A stretch of 64,000 bases of DNA. Source: Pseudomonadota bacterium (GTDB lineage Bacteria; Pseudomonadota; Gammaproteobacteria; Burkholderiales; Rhodocyclaceae). The position numbers were made by a program, and so were the translations under genes. The stretch lies in the NCBI GenBank assembly GCA_018241725.1, contig JAFEDI010000103.1:62001-126000 (forward strand), given 5' to 3'. Numbering within the stretch: position 1 is the stretch's first letter; each line of letters opens with the position of its first letter. The notes beneath the pieces are model-generated. The model ran no database searches, had not been told where the DNA came from, and worked only from the letters and a program-made list of their open reading frames with translations. Positions 1,561 through 14,785 of this stretch are shown here, piece by piece.

Positions 1561-2112
1561 ATGAAGACCCAGTACTACACCGCCTCAAGCCTCGATGGCT
1601 TCATCGCCACCGAGGATGACTCACTGGAATGGCTGTTTCCGCTAGGCGACCTGAACGCGTCCAGCTATCCCGCCTTCATTGCCGAAGTCGGCGCGCTGGC
1701 CATGGGCTCCTCCACCTATGAATGGATGCTCCGCAACGCCGACCAGGTGGCCGCCGAAACCGGCTCCCCCTGGCCCTACACCCAGCCCGTCTGGGTATTC
1801 ACCACCCGCCAGCTCCCCAGCGTGGAAGGTTCGGACATCCGCTTCGTCAAAGGCGACGTGCGCGAGGTGCACGAGCAAATGCGCACCGCCGCCGGGCCCA
1901 AGAACATCTGGATCGTCGGCGGTGGAGACCTGGCCGGCCAGTTCCATGACGCCGGCCTGGTGGATGAGATCATCATCCAGATCGGCTCCGTGACCCTCGG
2001 CAAGGGAAAACAGGTCTTCCCACGCCGCGTGCTGAGCCCCAGGCTGCAACTGGTTTCGGTTCGCCAGATGGGGGCGGGGATGGTTGAACTGAGGTATGAG
2101 GTCGGAAAGTAG
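1561..2112 (+). CDS. Dihydrofolate reductase family protein (RibD C-terminal-like)
   Basis: A 183-residue protein beginning MKTQYYTASSLDGFIA, the usual first strand of the RibD_C/DHFR-like fold. GSSTYEWML and the glycine-rich IWIVGGGDLAGQF segment mark the NADPH-binding core. These stand-alone proteins (YyaP/YwjB type) are predicted NAD(P)H reductases with unassigned substrates. The ATG at 1561 is chosen over the in-frame GTG at 1549 because AAGAGGTGA lies at a good ribosome-binding distance upstream of it. It is monocistronic and divergent from the membrane protein on its left. Length fits the family and I see no defect. Confidence 0.8.
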   Translation: MKTQYYTASSLDGFIATEDDSLEWLFPLGDLNASSYPAFIAEVGALAMGSSTYEWMLRNADQVAAETGSPWPYTQPVWVFTTRQLPSVEGSDIRFVKGDVREVHEQMRTAAGPKNIWIVGGGDLAGQFHDAGLVDEIIIQIGSVTLGKGKQVFPRRVLSPRLQLVSVRQMGAGMVELRYEVGK

Positions 2113-2233
2113 CCGAACGCTCATCCTGGTAGAGCTTCCCAGCCCTTTATGGAGCAAGTGCGCCCTTACGACGCCAACCAGCACGACGTACGCAACGGCA
2201 GGGAACACCTGCCCCCCTGGCCAGGCCGATCCC

Positions 2234-2497
2234 CTAAGCGCGCCCCCGCGCCCGCAAGGCTTTGAACAACTCCTGGACCTCCTCCGCGATCATCGCGCAG
2301 GCCCACAGGTAATTGTCCTGATAGGTGGGACTGAGACGCCGGAAGGCATCGCCCGAACTGCCGAAAGTCACGGCAAGCAAGGCCTGGAGCTGGGCCTGAC
2401 GGGCGGAAAGCTGGTCGGTGAGGGCCAAAGTACCAACCTCGTCGTTGAGCAGGTAGAGCGGATCGGCCGTTGCGGGAAACTCCATCGGAGTGCTCAT
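2234..2497 (-). CDS. Small hypothetical protein downstream of C4-type RNA locus
   Basis: An 87-residue protein starting MSTPMEFPATADPLYLLNDE with a helical, charged second half ending EEVQELFKALRARGRA. I do not recognise a family. Its ATG overlaps the stop of the upstream Icd-like frame by an ATGA junction. The start is preceded by GGAAGGGGCG, a reasonable ribosome-binding site. Because it is the distal gene behind the C4 antisense RNA structure, it would be expressed only when transcription and translation get past that control region. It may therefore be a prophage- or satellite-derived effector. Function unknown. Confidence 0.55.
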   Translation of the reverse strand: MSTPMEFPATADPLYLLNDEVGTLALTDQLSARQAQLQALLAVTFGSSGDAFRRLSPTYQDNYLWACAMIAEEVQELFKALRARGRA

Positions 2498-2841
2498 GCG
2501 ACGCCCCTTCCGATGACGGCCGGATGACATGTCGGCATGGCGACGACGTTGCGCGGGCAGCATTGATAAGACGGGGCTCGGGCGACCGGGCCCGTTGCGC
2601 GGTGGTGCATGGTGTTGGCTCCTATGTCTGCGGTCTGAATTTCCACCACCCACTTCTCACGGTGGGTGGCGGAACCGTGCGGGGGTGAGAAACCGGGACA
2701 TAGGAACCGGCCAGCCTTGCGGCTGCCCCGCACGGCCCGCCATGGGGCGTAACCATGCGCCAATATGAAAAAACCGCGCACAACAGCGCGGCCTAATCGT
2801 ATCGGCCTATGTCGTTCCGGGTTCTCACACCCGGCCACCAT
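2494..2841 (-). CDS. Icd-like open frame overlapping the C4 RNA (prophage immunity type)
   Basis: A 115-codon frame starting MVAGCENPERH. From memory, its sequence style (GFSPPHGSATHREKWVVEIQ, then TADIGAN and MHH) is that of proteins annotated in prophages as host cell division inhibitor Icd-like. These frames read straight through a C4 antisense RNA and its target sites, as this one does between 2600 and 2832. In P1 the C4 RNA represses icd and ant by pairing with the leader. Much of this frame is dictated by RNA structure, so part of it may be untranslated leader. The stop overlaps the next ATG, suggesting translational coupling. Confidence 0.45.
   Translation of the reverse strand: MVAGCENPERHRPIRLGRAVVRGFFILAHGYAPWRAVRGSRKAGRFLCPGFSPPHGSATHREKWVVEIQTADIGANTMHHRATGPVARAPSYQCCPRNVVAMPTCHPAVIGRGVA
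2672..2745 (-). ncRNA. C4-type antisense RNA (phage P1/P4 immunity family)
   Basis: On the minus strand a perfect 10-bp outer stem (CCGTGCGGGG at 2735-2726 with CCCCGCACGG at 2684-2675) encloses a small hairpin CAGCC/GGCTG and the single-strand-prone elements CCTATGTCCC and GGTTTCTCACC. These elements are complementary to a copy upstream in the same transcript (2832-2806, containing GTGAGAA and ACATAGG) and to a second copy downstream (GTGAGAA near 2660, ACATAGG near 2615). One processed hairpin flanked by two complementary targets is the defining arrangement of P1 c4 and P4 CI RNA. Confidence 0.65.
2767..2793 (-). terminator. Intrinsic terminator inside the C4 control region
   Basis: On the minus strand CCGCGC-TGTTGT-GCGCGG is followed by TTTTTT. 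It lies between the first complementary target copy and the C4 hairpin, so it could end transcripts early, as in the P4 immunity region. Confidence 0.7.
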
Positions 2842-2938
2842 TGTTTAGGTGACAGCTGGAGTATCGGCCTGAGGTACGGCGGGGGTCAAGATTTGCGGCG
2901 ATCCCGGCCAACTGGCGATTCGCCCCAATTATCCGGTT

Positions 2939-3226
2939 TTATCCTGAACAAGATAAAACCGGATAAAACGCGCCTGACATGAACGCTCGCCCCTCCGACT
3001 GGAACCTTTGATGCCCGGAGCCGAACGCTTGATGCCGGGACTTGAACTCGCTTCCCTCGGAACCGAACTTTTGATCCTGTGATTGAAGCCCGCTTCCCTC
3101 AGCGCTGAACTTTTGATCCTGCGATTGAAGCCCACTTCCCTCAGAGCGGAGCGCTCGAGGCTGCGACATGGACTGGCTTCCCCCTGATGGAAACAAGTTC
3201 AGGTCCGGAGGAAGCGGGCTCCCCAA
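2939..3226. repeat. Degenerate tandem repeat block, about 42-bp period
   Basis: Two adjacent copies of a unit beginning GAACTTTTGATCCTG (at 3065 and 3107) are nearly identical over 42 bp. More degenerate copies lie on their left (for example near 3000 and 3025). Read on the minus strand, the block gives repeats of SGLQSQDQKF. There is no ribosome-binding site or recognisable product, so I treat it as a non-coding repeat. A related block, sharing the translated strings DLNLF and SEFKS, lies at 57541-57800. Confidence 0.6.
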
Positions 3227-3302: not shown

Positions 3303-3779
3303 TCAGGCTGGAACCGCACCCTCTTCATCGCGACGCCGACCCTGCCCCTTGAAACGCGTCGACGCCTGAGCGCGGAGTTCATCCAGTGCCGTACCCTTGC
3401 CCGCGAGCTTCGCAAAACGGTAAGCCTCCAAGGCCGCAGCGTAGATGTCGCTGCCCAGCGCCATCTCGGTGTCCTCCCCGCGCTGGGTCAGCGCGGTCAA
3501 CCGGGCCAGCACCGGACGCAGGCGATCCAGCGCCTGGATGTCCGCGCCAAATTCCTTGAGATCGAAAGTCCCCGGCAGGATCTCCGGAGACTGGGCGATC
3601 ACGTCATACGCCTTGCGCGCAAACATCTCCGACTTCGGCCCCATCTTGCTCAGCTCCCGCCGCTGATCCACCGACAGGGAAATCAAACCCGCCAACTGCT
3701 GCTCCAGCACCTCCAGGGCTTTCTGGACCAGGTCGATCTGCTCCGCGGACAGCTGCAGTGAAATCACATTCTGAGTCAT
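3303..3779 (-). CDS. Hypothetical protein, helical, 158 residues
   Basis: Begins MTQNVISLQLSAEQIDLVQK. The first 60 residues are predicted helical with heptad-like leucines (AEQIDLVQKALEVLEQQLAG). The middle holds SEMFARKAYDVIAQSPEILP and a helical DIQALDRLRPVLARLTAL segment. The basic C-terminus is RFKGQGRRRDEE. The ATG at 3779 is preceded by GGAGCGAGAGG. I do not recognise a named family. The composition matches the core chromosome rather than the island on its right, so it may be an ordinary lineage-specific gene. No operon partner is visible. Confidence 0.65.
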   Translation of the reverse strand: MTQNVISLQLSAEQIDLVQKALEVLEQQLAGLISLSVDQRRELSKMGPKSEMFARKAYDVIAQSPEILPGTFDLKEFGADIQALDRLRPVLARLTALTQRGEDTEMALGSDIYAAALEAYRFAKLAGKGTALDELRAQASTRFKGQGRRRDEEGAVPA

Positions 3780-4438: not shown

Positions 4439-5275
4439 TTGAAGCCAAGGATTGTGGAGCAGGATGAAGGAAAGGCTGGTCACCGATGGACCGTCTGCAT
4501 AAATATCTGTGAATTACAGAATGCGGCCGATCCTACTGTGGCACATATGGTTAATGCCGTTCGCGATGCATACGGTGAAAACGAAATCCTAGCGGAAGTC
4601 GCGGCCATCGAAGCGGACCCTGCTGTCGCACAGAGCTTTGATATCGCGTCTATAATTACCGGCTTTCGTCGCGGGCTACCATCTCCCGACGGCGAAGCAA
4701 AGAAACCTGAGAATCTGAGGAATTACCGTTCGGAGACCTCAGAATTCGTTGCTCGTGAGACACTCAAATTAGTATTCAACGTTACCACGCCGCCAACGCT
4801 ACACGCGACGAAGGGGAACGCACTCCAACCTCTGCTTGGATACGATGGCTGGGGGCTTCTCTCTAACACGGACAGTACTCCTGCACTGGTACTCATACAA
4901 GTGAAGGGAAGTGATGAAGACGCATCTCCGCCTGCAGTTGCAACCGATTTGGCGGACGAATGCCTGCGTGTTGTCACGGAAGTAGACAAATTGGCGCATG
5001 CTTTGAGTGCATGTTTGCTCCGGGTGAAAACAACACCATTGGCTGGATATTTGCTCAAGATGCTTGAAGCGGTAGGTCGTAATGAGCTTCCTGCGATGGT
5101 AGTGGCGCCGGTCATTGTCCGGGGGCATGTGACAGCACAAATGTCGGATCTGCAGCCATTGAAAGACTCTCTATCGATGCAGGATCATCCAATTGCTCTA
5201 GGCGTCTCGATCACTATCGGCGCACCGCTGGAGAAGTTGGGTTACGCGGTTATGTCTAGGGCTCGCCAATCGTGA
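4439..5275 (+). CDS. Putative defence nuclease, HamA-like (Hachiman-like pair)
   Basis: A 278-residue protein read from a TTG preceded by AAGAGGAC at good spacing; the next in-frame ATG is 35 codons further in. The centre fits a PD-(D/E)xK nuclease core: a helix with E102 and E107, then GYDGWGL (D136), then a strand ALVLIQVKGS with Q154 and K156. The QxK version is known from Mrr-type nucleases. It overlaps the downstream helicase start by 4 bp (GTGA), so the two products are made together. Nuclease plus SF2 helicase in this order and size matches Hachiman (HamA/HamB). The assignment rests on context and motif; another nuclease-helicase system is possible. Confidence 0.55.
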   Translation: MKPRIVEQDEGKAGHRWTVCINICELQNAADPTVAHMVNAVRDAYGENEILAEVAAIEADPAVAQSFDIASIITGFRRGLPSPDGEAKKPENLRNYRSETSEFVARETLKLVFNVTTPPTLHATKGNALQPLLGYDGWGLLSNTDSTPALVLIQVKGSDEDASPPAVATDLADECLRVVTEVDKLAHALSACLLRVKTTPLAGYLLKMLEAVGRNELPAMVVAPVIVRGHVTAQMSDLQPLKDSLSMQDHPIALGVSITIGAPLEKLGYAVMSRARQS

Positions 5276-8200
5276 GCGCCGACTTCGCTTACCTCTACGA
5301 AGACAATAGTCTTCTCGCAATTCATAGCGAGATCGACTCTTCGTTGCTGTCTAAGCGTGTCAATCGCACCACGCAGACCACCAACGACACGCAGAAGCTA
5401 TTCGTTGCTGCAAGCATGGCCACGACCGTGTTTTTCGATGGCCTGACCCTGGACGAGTTCAGCCGAGATGGCTTTGATGCACAGGAGGACGGCACGCTGG
5501 AGCTGTGCACAGCTCACTGGCGTGCGTTTTTAGAGGCCACAGAGAACAACGACGGCGATCGTGTGTCATTAAATGATCTGCTTTTTTTTGCCGCCACAGG
5601 CATTTTGAACAAGCAGCAGACAGAGGTACGAACGACACTGCGCGCGAAGTTCCTACGCGAAATCGTCGATCGAGCCTATCGCAAGCGTACAGAGGAAAGG
5701 GATTGGCGTGAAATATGCCGTTCGCACGTTTCGTGTGCGATCCTCTTCCTAGTACGCCAATCCAATCACTCCGATTTGAGTCAGGCACGTGAAGCGGTCA
5801 ACGCCCTGATCGCGTTGCAGAACGAGTACCGGTCAGAGATCGAAGCGCTATCCGCAGGAGCCGCAAAGAACGGCCTCCAGGTGCTTGGCCTCTACCATAT
5901 CGCTCACGCGGCCACTCGAACCGCCCAGTATCTAATCGCAGGTCGCCTCGAAAGCGAGAACGGCAGGAGTACCAACTTCGAGCCTGAACTACGTCGGCTG
6001 CTGAGCAAGTCGGAGGAACTGATCGAAGCTAGCAATTCACCCGATTATCTAATTTGGGTCAGAGCAGTTGGCTCCGTGCTTTGGAAGATATTCGATGATT
6101 CGATTTGGCGACAAGCCACAGGACTGTCAAGCACGATTGACGGTTTGGTCGGTGAGCTAGCAAGGCGCGACCACCCGATCTTTAGTCTCTTACCATCGCA
6201 GCAAGAGGCGCTGGACATGCACTTGCTCGATAGCGCGCAAGTTGCCGTTGTACTACAAATGCCCACCAGCGCCGGCAAGACCTTACTTGCGGAATTCGCC
6301 ATACTGCAAGCATTTGAAGCCTATAAGGATGCAACCCGGGTCGTCTATATCGCACCGACAAGAGCACTGTGCACACAGACGTACAGAACACTCGCAACGG
6401 ATCTGGCAGATCTGGGAATTCAAGTTCAATTAGCAAGTAGCGCTTTTGAAGAGGACCCGTTTGAATCCTCGTTGATCTCCGAAATACAGAGCGGCGTCGT
6501 CGTCTCCACCCCGGAGAAAGTTGACCTTCTGCTGCGATCGAATCCTGCGTGGTTCAACACGGTTAAGCTTGTCGTCGTCGACGAGGCGCACCTACTGAGC
6601 GATAACGAACGCGGCGTTCGACTGGAACTGCTCTTGGCGAACTTGCGCCGTGAGCAAGCAACTGTTCGGTTCTTGCTCCTAACGCCGTTCGTTGACAATG
6701 CGGATCAGGTCGCCAAGTGGCTAGGGGGCAATCGCGGCGCCCCAATCCATATCAGGTGGCGTCCCGCAAGATTGTTGGTTGGCCTCGCACACACATCAAG
6801 AAAGAAGAAGCGCCCCCACTTCGAGATTCACTGGAAGGAGCCCCACGCGAGCCGTGCAAGTCACAAGCCGCTTCATATCGCTATTGACGAGGACGTACCC
6901 AGTAGCTCGACGCTGGATCGAGTCGTAGCCCTGCACTCCCGCTTCAGCCGACTTGGCCTTACTTTGGGGATGTTCCCCGCTTCTAGAGCGAAGGCAGAAG
7001 ACGCAGCGTTACGCATTGCCAAGACCACAGTCGCCAAGAAGACTGAAGCCTCCGATGAGAAACAATTTGCTATTGCTTTAGCACAAGCAGAGTTCGGCGA
7101 CGATAGCGCTTTGGCATGCTGCCTGAAGGAGAACGTGGCGTTCCATCACGCAGCGCTATCCCCTGAATTAAGGTACTTAATCGAAGAGCTTGGTCGATCA
7201 CGACAACTGGACTTTCTTGCAGCAACGACGACGCTTGCCCAGGGAATCAATTTTCCTGTTTCGACGGTGCTGGTCCACTCAATTAACAAGCCTTTTGGTG
7301 GCGGAGATCTCTCCTCCAGTGAGTTCTGGAACATTGCTGGCCGTGCGGGACGGGTCGGACTGGCCGACAAAGGCTTCATCGTATTTGCAAACAATAAGCA
7401 CAGCGACAAGTGGGAAAGATATACGCAGCAGCTTTCGGAATCTATTGTCTCAGCGCTATTGAAGGTGCTCGATGCCGCGATGCGTGAGCCTGACCTCAAG
7501 ACAGCCTACCGAAAATTTCCCCAACTTCGTCCTTTCTTGCAGTATCTGGCTCATGCGGCAGCGAACATGACTCCCCGAGTTGCACTCAGTTCCCTCGAGG
7601 AGATTCTGGAAGCCAGTTTTGCAAATACCATGGCCTCGGGTCGTGAGGAGCGGCGCGCCCTCCGTGAGCTTGCAGCACGTTATCTGTCAGCGATTGCACA
7701 TAAGTCCCCCGGCTATCTCAAGATTGCCGATACCACCGGTTTCAGTTCATTTAGCTTTGACGAGTTGTACGCGAAGATTCCAGGGGACGCCGTCTTAGCT
7801 GCGGGGCCGCACGCAGTCCTTCAGGGAGGCGCAGGTTCCTTGACGCACTTGGTAGAGGCGTTAGCATGGCTACCCGAATTGGATCTCGCACTGGGCAAGG
7901 GAACGGGGCCGATGGACACGCAGGCGGTAGCTCGTGTCGTCGAGGGATGGATCCGCGGCAAGACCGTTCAGGAAATCGCGCCGGAGTTTGTTGGTGCCAA
8001 TGAGAAAAGGCTGCGTGATGCAGGAACCTATCTCTTTACGAAGGTTTCCCAGACTATTTCTTGGGGCGCGCACGCTTATATTCGAGGTTGGAATCTTCAG
8101 GATAAAGCCAGGATCCCGGACGAACAAGATATGAACGCCGCCATGCTTCCTGCATACATTCAGCATGGAGTAAATACACCTGAGGCAGCCGTAGCGTCCC

Positions 8201-8430
8201 TGTTCTCTGTTCCAAGATTGATGGCGGAACCGTTGGGCAAATGTTTTCGCGACACTGCAGGTCCCCTCACGCCTAAAAACGTCCGTGAGTTCCGGAGTTT
8301 CATTGAGCAGGCAGACGAGAAAATTTGGGATGCGGCCTTGGCGAATTCCAAACTTGCAGGCAAGGTCACCCCGGCCCAAGCACGTTCGGTTTGGCGGCGC
8401 ATGCGTGGCTTGGAAGGCTTTAGCCGCTGA
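5272..8430 (+). CDS. Ski2-like DExH helicase, HamB-like
   Basis: A 1052-residue SF2 helicase starting at a GTG that overlaps the upstream stop. About 320 N-terminal residues without a recognised domain come first. Then follow Walker A MPTSAGKTLLAEF (about residue 330), motif Ia YIAPTRALC, STPEKVD, the DEAH box VVVDEAHLL (about 435), motif V TLAQGINFPV and motif VI FWNIAGRAGRVG (about 685). This set, with the GINFP and GRAGR signatures, is typical of Ski2/Hel308-type helicases. The C-terminal 350 residues are probably helical and may sense DNA structure. With its coupled nuclease-like partner it forms a likely anti-phage module in which the helicase controls the nuclease. Position and order resemble HamB. 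Confidence 0.65.
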   Translation: MSADFAYLYEDNSLLAIHSEIDSSLLSKRVNRTTQTTNDTQKLFVAASMATTVFFDGLTLDEFSRDGFDAQEDGTLELCTAHWRAFLEATENNDGDRVSLNDLLFFAATGILNKQQTEVRTTLRAKFLREIVDRAYRKRTEERDWREICRSHVSCAILFLVRQSNHSDLSQAREAVNALIALQNEYRSEIEALSAGAAKNGLQVLGLYHIAHAATRTAQYLIAGRLESENGRSTNFEPELRRLLSKSEELIEASNSPDYLIWVRAVGSVLWKIFDDSIWRQATGLSSTIDGLVGELARRDHPIFSLLPSQQEALDMHLLDSAQVAVVLQMPTSAGKTLLAEFAILQAFEAYKDATRVVYIAPTRALCTQTYRTLATDLADLGIQVQLASSAFEEDPFESSLISEIQSGVVVSTPEKVDLLLRSNPAWFNTVKLVVVDEAHLLSDNERGVRLELLLANLRREQATVRFLLLTPFVDNADQVAKWLGGNRGAPIHIRWRPARLLVGLAHTSRKKKRPHFEIHWKEPHASRASHKPLHIAIDEDVPSSSTLDRVVALHSRFSRLGLTLGMFPASRAKAEDAALRIAKTTVAKKTEASDEKQFAIALAQAEFGDDSALACCLKENVAFHHAALSPELRYLIEELGRSRQLDFLAATTTLAQGINFPVSTVLVHSINKPFGGGDLSSSEFWNIAGRAGRVGLADKGFIVFANNKHSDKWERYTQQLSESIVSALLKVLDAAMREPDLKTAYRKFPQLRPFLQYLAHAAANMTPRVALSSLEEILEASFANTMASGREERRALRELAARYLSAIAHKSPGYLKIADTTGFSSFSFDELYAKIPGDAVLAAGPHAVLQGGAGSLTHLVEALAWLPELDLALGKGTGPMDTQAVARVVEGWIRGKTVQEIAPEFVGANEKRLRDAGTYLFTKVSQTISWGAHAYIRGWNLQDKARIPDEQDMNAAMLPAYIQHGVNTPEAAVASLFSVPRLMAEPLGKCFRDTAGPLTPKNVREFRSFIEQADEKIWDAALANSKLAGKVTPAQARSVWRRMRGLEGFSR

Positions 8431-14354: not shown

Positions 14355-14785
14355 TTATTCCGTCAAATATAGGGATGGCACCGCAGCGGGGATGCATATA
14401 CTTTGATGCAAGAACCTACATGCGCCACGCCGCATGCAATGCCGCCGAGGAGAAGGGCCGCCCCATCCAGTTGATGGGCTTCGGTGATGTCGCGATTGCC
14501 GCAGGCGCGGACGAGGTGCTAACCACCAGCACGCCGGGGAAACCGATTCTGGGGGGAAGCTCTGAGAAATCGGCACGCTGGCGAAGGCAGAGGCGTGGGA
14601 CGGAAAGTCTGTCGGGCGAGGCCGGCTCCATACCGAAGTGCATGGGTGGCGGTTGAGTGAAGGCGCATCCCGGGCAAACCTACCAGGGAGGGCTGGGCTC
14701 AGCCTTCACCACCCAAAGCTAGGCTGAAAAGTGTGCACCTGCTTGTCTGGCTGAGCCTTTCAGGGAGGCAGAAGAATGAGTCGCA
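14355..14785. other. Intergenic, no supported gene
   Basis: A 93-codon frame at 14375-14656 has no recognised domain, no good ribosome-binding site and an arginine-rich tail; I do not call it. The stretch separates the rightward hipBA operon from leftward genes. No clear terminator was found. Confidence 0.5.

Follow-up and report, generated by a model that had tools for sequence, protein, structure and literature searches.

A C4-type antisense RNA, found in a 64,000-nt stretch of DNA (the window) from a genome (G000, the source genome) congeneric with Zoogloea sp. LCSB751, is probably part of a domesticated, self-contained C4/isrK-type switch that belongs to a dispersed family and stands ahead of a gene for an 87-residue protein. 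This reading draws on features taken directly from the sequences, namely the C4 fold, the complementary words in loops and targets, the overlap of two open reading frames, copy number, a low dN/dS of the protein, changes of words in three places in step, and an empty site in a relative. A preliminary description of this DNA had reported a C4 RNA with two flanking complementary targets, an observation confirmed here as a whole. Its interpretation was partly supported: the C4 class, the two-sided targets, and the placement ahead of the gene stand, but the idea of a lone survivor does not, and a reading frame called Icd-like is so by position only.

Layout of the cassette

All coordinates of the switch are on the minus strand, and its parts are as follows.

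2124..2911, no strand assigned: whole cassette, 788 bp in place of 27 bp at the empty site of G021 (taken as MAG SZAS-78)
2860..2889, minus: sigma-70-like promoter, TTGACC - 18 nt - GATACT (sequence)
2769..2853, minus: isrK-like leader RNA with 5′ hairpin, b1 hairpin, a1, and terminator (Rfam isrK, below cut-off)
2822..2828, minus: upstream target b1, GTGAGAA, shown in a hairpin loop and exactly complementary to C4 loop B
2806..2813, minus: upstream target a1, GACATAGG; exact complement of C4 loop A
2767..2793, minus: intrinsic terminator, GGCCGCGCTGTTGTGCGCGGTTTTTTC, a GC hairpin followed by T6
2662..2747, minus: C4 antisense RNA (Rfam RF01695)
2697..2704, minus: C4 loop A word, CCTATGTC, an anti-Shine-Dalgarno plus a private part (sequence, word parsing)
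2685..2691, minus: C4 loop B word, TTCTCAC, private (sequence, word parsing)
2653..2660, minus: downstream target b2, GTGAGAAG (sequence, word parsing)
2619..2628, minus: downstream target a2, GACATAGGAG, containing the Shine-Dalgarno of the leader ORF (sequence, word parsing)
2494..2610, minus: 38-codon leader ORF in the position of icd or orf45, with a GGAG Shine-Dalgarno and then ATG at 2610
2234..2497, minus: gene for the 87-aa helical protein (15 full-length copies in the source genome; no library family at or near cut-off)

The Rfam C4 model (RF01695), which had been suggested as a check of the minus strand, gave a match at 2747-2662 (-) with 72.8 bits against a gathering cut-off of 45 (E 2.8e-12, whole-window search). 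The 10-bp stem described earlier, CCGTGCGGGG (2735-2726) with CCCCGCACGG (2684-2675), is perfect as read from the sequence, and both loops are, as claimed, perfectly complementary to the upstream segment (2828-2806) and to the split downstream site (2660-2653 and 2628-2619). The two loops have their targets, one of them on a ribosome-binding site, and a second target pair (a1 b1) lies upstream with exact words at 2828-2822 and 2813-2806. Within 2400-2900, GACATAGG, the exact complement of the loop A word, is found only twice, starting upstream at 2813 and downstream at 2628, and GTGAGAA, that of the loop B word, likewise only twice, starting at 2828 and 2660. Genome-wide, the spaced pair GTGAGAA-N5..34-GACATAGG occurs three times—at the upstream site, at the downstream site, and, on the other strand, at C4 itself—with no exact copy elsewhere in G000 and none of a reversed control pattern (0). 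The C4 loop segment was predicted to fold with each target at about -40 kcal/mol.

The intrinsic terminator that had been proposed between leader and C4 is borne out by the sequence; the promoter was absent from the preliminary description. Patterns of the TTGACC-N18-GATACT type were found ahead of C4 in 38 of 46 gene-bearing cassettes from seven genomes (spacer 18 in 37, 17 in one), compared with 5 of 1646 background windows of equal length. The leader in the window matches isrK (RF01394) with 35.3 bits (E 5.7e-6 in a 601-base search), below the cut-off of 50, and c4-a1b1 (RF03163) with 24.6 bits, below the cut-off of 46.7. Matches to isrK were obtained in 9 of the 10 G000 loci searched (E 5.3e-4 or better), with only L005 over the cut-off (51.5 bits). 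In 68 aligned, related loci, compared without a shuffle control, pairing in the 5′ hairpin and in the stem enclosing the terminator was kept through two-sided changes, and the b1 hairpin showed little variation.

Downstream, the frame of 115 residues at 2841-2494 that had been called Icd-like is unlikely to serve as the ORF, as GGAG followed by ATG at 2610 gives one of 38 codons. The name holds for position only, as the frame follows the C4 target and runs into the next gene; homology of the longer frame to Icd was rejected, with no PHROG family matched in a scan of the full 115 residues. The TGA of the 38-codon ORF overlaps the ATG of the 87-aa gene (ATGA), so that by position and overlap the target frame is coupled to the next gene as in icd-ant. 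Such an ATGA-coupled leader lies behind GGAG in 41 of the 46 cassettes and is absent ahead of five genes, in four of which the ATG directly follows the a2 site; leader peptides differ between orthologs. The suggestion that C4 may control the 87-residue gene fits this placement, and control would run through the coupled leader ORF.

C4 antisense RNAs as a class are processed to about 77 nt by RNase P. How the cassette would be expressed, processed, and repressed, its decoy role, and the function of its protein we infer from the arrangement described above. A transcript from the single promoter would partly end at the intrinsic terminator and give the isrK-like leader RNA carrying b1 and a1, and read-through would carry transcription on through C4, the b2 and a2 targets, the 38-codon ORF, and the 87-aa gene, RNase P presumably then releasing the C4 RNA. 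By pairing of loop B with b2 and of loop A with a2, C4 would hide the Shine-Dalgarno of the leader ORF; this, together with translational coupling (ATGA) and polarity, would keep the 87-aa protein off. Because the leader RNA holds the same words as the target, it could bind C4 as a decoy, setting the level and permitting switching on. With words of its own, each cassette would act mainly on itself.

Copies and private words across genomes

The source genome was found to contain 18 C4 matches, every one over the cut-off, on 15 contigs. Comparable numbers were obtained for G016 (taken as Zoogloea sp. LCSB751; 15 matches, 14 over the cut-off) and G020 (taken as MAG SZAS-77; 17 matches, 16 over), and the remaining members of the genus have 0 to 6 each. 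A C4 match is present in 23 of 60 relatives and, class-wide, in 24 of 369 genomes with G000 included; the latter search scored 11 candidates per genome, so its copy numbers are lower bounds, and in a fuller search of eight genomes the members of the class that ranked next had 10, 6, and 6 copies. No match was found in 14 well-known control genomes. A search for the protein family returned 19 matches in G000, 15 full-length and 4 partial, and all 15 full-length genes lie behind a C4; the three remaining C4 copies precede other, partly phage-like ORFs or nothing. The family is present in 8 of 23 genomes of the genus, one of which has just a 50-residue piece, and in 7 of 199 genomes of the taxonomic family, G000 included. 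No relatives were found in phage, plasmid, and viral (IMG/VR) contig collections. A lone relic, as the preliminary description had it, is at odds with these counts, since 15 of the 18 C4 copies in G000 precede one protein family and two related genomes are similar.

The C4 loops of each copy were compared with all downstream targets in the same genome (2 of 91 loci were left unparsed, and the automatic a word of C29 and its G020 partner has only four letters). The best-pairing downstream target was the copy's own in 17 of 18 cases in G000, 14 of 15 in G016, 14 of the 16 parsed among 17 in G020, and all six in G320, which belongs to another family and has six C4 copies; the observed sum was reached by 0, 0, 0, and 21 of 10000 permutations, respectively. 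The G000 copy C128:44628 lacks both a matching a2 and a gene, and in G016 and G020 a non-cognate target outscores the own one for two copies and equals it for one. Among the 46 gene-bearing cassettes, exact copies of the 7-nt b word stand upstream as well as downstream in 45, the remaining cassette having lost its leader, and up to six letters from the start of the a word recur upstream in 39.

Within the three rich genomes, none of 276 within-genome pairs has both words in common. This outcome was also frequent when b words were shuffled against a words (P 0.91, 0.85, and 0.61), and uniqueness was therefore rejected as proof of selection; selection for insulation is suggested rather than shown. 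Where protein identity is at least 75%, both words are shared in 0 of 9 pairs within and 15 of 47 between these genomes (Fisher P 0.094), and this lower sharing within than between genomes is only a lead. The tandem pair on contig C4, with 98% protein identity, differs in both words, and C66 and C18 of G020, with 100% identity over 79 residues before the contig end, differ in b.

Changes of words were followed between species at loci in the same place. The window cassette lies in the same place in G016 and G020 with both flanks shared, and ten G000 cassettes have a syntenic partner by one or both flanks. The syntenic set comprised these 10 loci in 13 pairs, leaving out short or cross-locus flank matches (254-826 nt) of C4:22231, C140, and C120. 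Across the 13 comparisons, the a word was unchanged (0 of 320 sites), and changes were found at 50 of 271 b sites and 339 of 3526 other sites; the 50 changes in b are not independent, since the three places change jointly and some species enter more than one comparison. All three occurrences of the b word differ together at 5 of the 10 loci (8 of the 13 comparisons), with perfect pairing in each species. The window locus, with GTGAGAA versus TTGGAAC, is among the five. At another of them, C47, the dS of the gene is 0.86-0.96, compared with 0.17-0.45 at the other switched loci, and there the whole cassette may thus have been replaced rather than the word rewritten.

Two further sets of copies were observed outside these comparisons. 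Positions 1700-3092 of locus L169, in the small genome G320, hold four C4 copies in 1.4 kb, no two sharing a b word and three having the a word in common. Loci L162-L167 of G425 hold six C4 copies with varied upstream words, four of which, judged by eye, seem to have lost the downstream match.

The protein, the origin of the cassette, and its neighbours

Searches of Pfam, PHROGs, and NCBIfam with the 87-aa protein gave no family at or close to a cut-off. The dN/dS of the protein lies at 0.03-0.21 across the 13 syntenic comparisons and is at most 0.2 in 22 of the 26 closest between-genome pairs (maximum 0.31), values by which the protein looks to be under purifying selection. An AlphaFold model predicts three helices (mean pLDDT 83, pTM 0.68). 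Assignment of a function by fold was tried and dropped, as none of 175 PDB matches with E up to 10 reached E <= 0.001. A link to DUF3077 (PF11275), an idea that came from neighbouring C4-led ORFs that do match DUF3077, was likewise rejected, with no profile match in any of the 15 family members and a profile-profile probability of 0.9%. C4-led ORFs at L102 (G020) and L135 (G012), both of the two tested, exceed the DUF3077 cut-off and constitute a second uncharacterised family behind C4.

A small protein under a cis antisense layout, in many dispersed copies with private pairing, is also what would be expected of an RNA-only toxin-antitoxin or addiction unit, in which the 87-aa protein would be harmful and C4 would be the antisense antitoxin. 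This is an unlikely reading: the window protein matched no toxin family, either in Pfam and NCBIfam searched up to E 1 or in PADLOC searched up to E 0.01, and the 15 family members gave matches at chance level only (OmdA in two members, best E 0.074; VapB antitoxin in one, E 0.11).

The 788-bp unit was delimited by the empty site of G021, where both flanks of the window cassette are shared and 27 bp stand in its place; the unit gained or lost therefore runs from promoter to gene. No target-site duplication was seen by eye at this site. Since the flanks are shared with a relative lacking the cassette, no phage genes came along at the window site, and an intact prophage, with phage genes brought in together with C4, was not found there. 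The neighbours at 1549-2112, 3303-3779, and 4439-8430 have no phage structural or integrase match in Pfam, PHROGs, and NCBIfam (1549-2112 in Pfam and NCBIfam); the helicase at 5272-8430 matches phage helicase families. A conserved operon of the cassette and the following gene was considered and rejected, as the gene behind varies from locus to locus. The stand-alone survivor of the preliminary description is apt insofar as the 788-bp unit has no phage genes, but not insofar as it is one of 18 C4 copies in G000.

In G018, G009, and G004, family members lie behind C4 in elements with DUF3987, DUF927/Toprim, RadC, resolvase, or tape-measure genes. This phage or satellite context in sister species suggests a phage or satellite ancestry, followed by spread and retention as stand-alone cassettes. 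The term immunity RNA may thus describe the likely origin rather than an established present function, and an old phage immunity RNA seems to have been turned into a family of separately addressed chromosomal switches. The same context, together with the partial gene copies (4 of the 19 matches in G000), would also fit prophage or satellite relics, that is, leftovers of many lost P4-like elements retained by chance with no present role. That reading is quite unlikely, given the low dN/dS of the protein, the preservation of three-site pairing through word switches, the positions shared among related species, and the C4 ahead of every one of the 15 full-length genes.

Defence genes were sought near the cassettes with PADLOC in 71 of 73 flank proteins of 15 G000 cassettes and 100 of 110 control proteins from 20 stretches, leaving out two ORFs over a cassette and ten short control ORFs. 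A clear defence gene, as judged by eye, lies within about 4 kb of 6 of the 15 cassettes (the window; C16; C128:98451; C9; and the pair C4:22231 and C4:24311). At a plain limit of E 1e-10, C110 (PDC-S02, 86 bits) and C29 and C120 (RtcR-type regulators, probably generic) are also included. PADLOC families matched numbered 160 for cassette flanks versus 47 for controls; the P value for enrichment, 0.03 to 0.27, is based on assumed counts of 1 to 4 of the 20 control stretches, and enrichment beside defence genes is a lead only. A bolder version of the switch is conceivable, though we regard it as doubtful: a lineage of Zoogloea would carry a dozen or more insulated C4 switches per genome, with private two-word codes, selected non-interference, and b rewritten in three places after duplication or speciation, tending to lie near defence systems and maybe coupling small helical regulators to phage attack.

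Very unlikely is a chromosomal immunity repertoire, in which C4 RNAs would act in trans on incoming phages or satellites with the same words and the gene would be incidental or a sensor: C4 is part of P1 immunity in the available text of PMC8198154, trans immunity is one option named by the Acinetobacter baumannii authors (available text of PMC5320573), the pair CTACAGGA/TTGGAAG is common to one G004 C4 and cassettes of G016 and G020, and there are the defence genes near the 6 cassettes, but shared pairs are expected by chance because few words are in use, the defence link is without per-locus control, and co-switching of own targets and a selected protein point to cis control.

Individual defence loci were also noted. 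In the window, 4439-8430 (+) holds a two-gene candidate defence system, PDC-M23, with a Hachiman-like helicase, about 1.5 kb from the cassette promoter (PADLOC scores of 628 bits for the helicase and 13 bits for the first gene). The G000 cassettes L013, L015, L016, and L021 adjoin PDC-S02 + PtuA, HEC-01, Drt2 + pAgo, and Lamassu genes, and an Rfam RT-12 RNA lies near the Drt2 gene (L006).

Relation to known systems

The C4/isrK-type switch proposed here is of a kind already known; new are its stand-alone, many-copy, privately addressed form and its three-site switching. The logic of P1 c4/icd/ant, as far as the available texts describe it, is the same repression scheme as that proposed for the cassette (PMC8198154; PMC5320573), and the specificities of the P1 and P7 C4 RNAs are set apart by a 4-nt difference (as cited in the available text of PMC5320573). 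The window cassette and the P1/P7 C4 (RF01695) with icd-ant have in common a fold over the cut-off, two loops facing upstream and downstream sites, a covered Shine-Dalgarno, and coupled ORFs; unlike these, the cassette lies outside a prophage, its gene is not ant, and the genome holds 18 copies, each with its own word pair. The P4 CI RNA, with seqA and seqC, is similarly an antisense RNA between two copies of its target, but acts by transcription termination (as cited in the available text of PMC4825925), whereas the downstream site in the window covers a Shine-Dalgarno.

The Gifsy-1 locus isrK - STnc1160 - orf45 - anrP likewise has a leader ending at a terminator, a stable RNA behind it, and a short ORF overlapping the next gene as AUGA, and IsrK acting in trans switches orf45-anrP on, according to the available text (PMC4825925). 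There, the locus is prophage-borne and the next gene is an antirepressor, and the isrK score of the window is below the cut-off. In Burkholderia cenocepacia, isrK followed by C4 forms one transcription unit (ncS23/ncS24), listed as one locus only in the table of the source (PMC4603805). A weak resemblance of the window (19.5 bits, cut-off 53 missed) was found to sRNA-Xcc1 (RF02221), a small RNA described, in the available text, upstream of symE in movable Xanthomonas integron cassettes (PMC12444791); neither an integron cassette nor symE was seen in the Zoogloea case.

A further close precedent is the Group 1 sRNAs of A. baumannii, with 21 C4-like copies that are expressed and apparently processed, dispersed in one chromosome and variable in their loops; phage or other bacterial RNAs are proposed as targets, and the available text names no cis targets (PMC5320573). 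In the literature found, only this Acinetobacter set was described as a large chromosomal set of C4-like RNAs, with targets unknown in the texts available, and no report was found of C4 copies with private cis targets in Zoogloea, in a search mostly of paper records, drawn largely from outside subscription journals. In the Zoogloea cassettes, by contrast with Group 1, every copy is accompanied by cis targets of its own, and a single gene family lies behind most copies. As each RNA comes with its own target, promoter, and gene, the targets are known from the sequence. With the three-site co-switching, the natural set of 46 related gene-bearing cassettes lends itself to direct tests of specificity, of crosstalk, and of how RNA-RNA pairing evolves; these cassettes also form a ready set of separately addressed RNA switches, and a small-protein family absent from every library searched here is brought to light.

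Two repeated or structured elements were observed in passing. A repeat of about 280 bp, at about 4340-4625 of L024, has many copies across Zoogloea genomes; 73 matches were counted for G012 and, among the matches listed, most are to this stretch. An Rfam Betaproteobacteria-1 RNA is located at 14500-14617 (+) of the window, with 76.8 bits.
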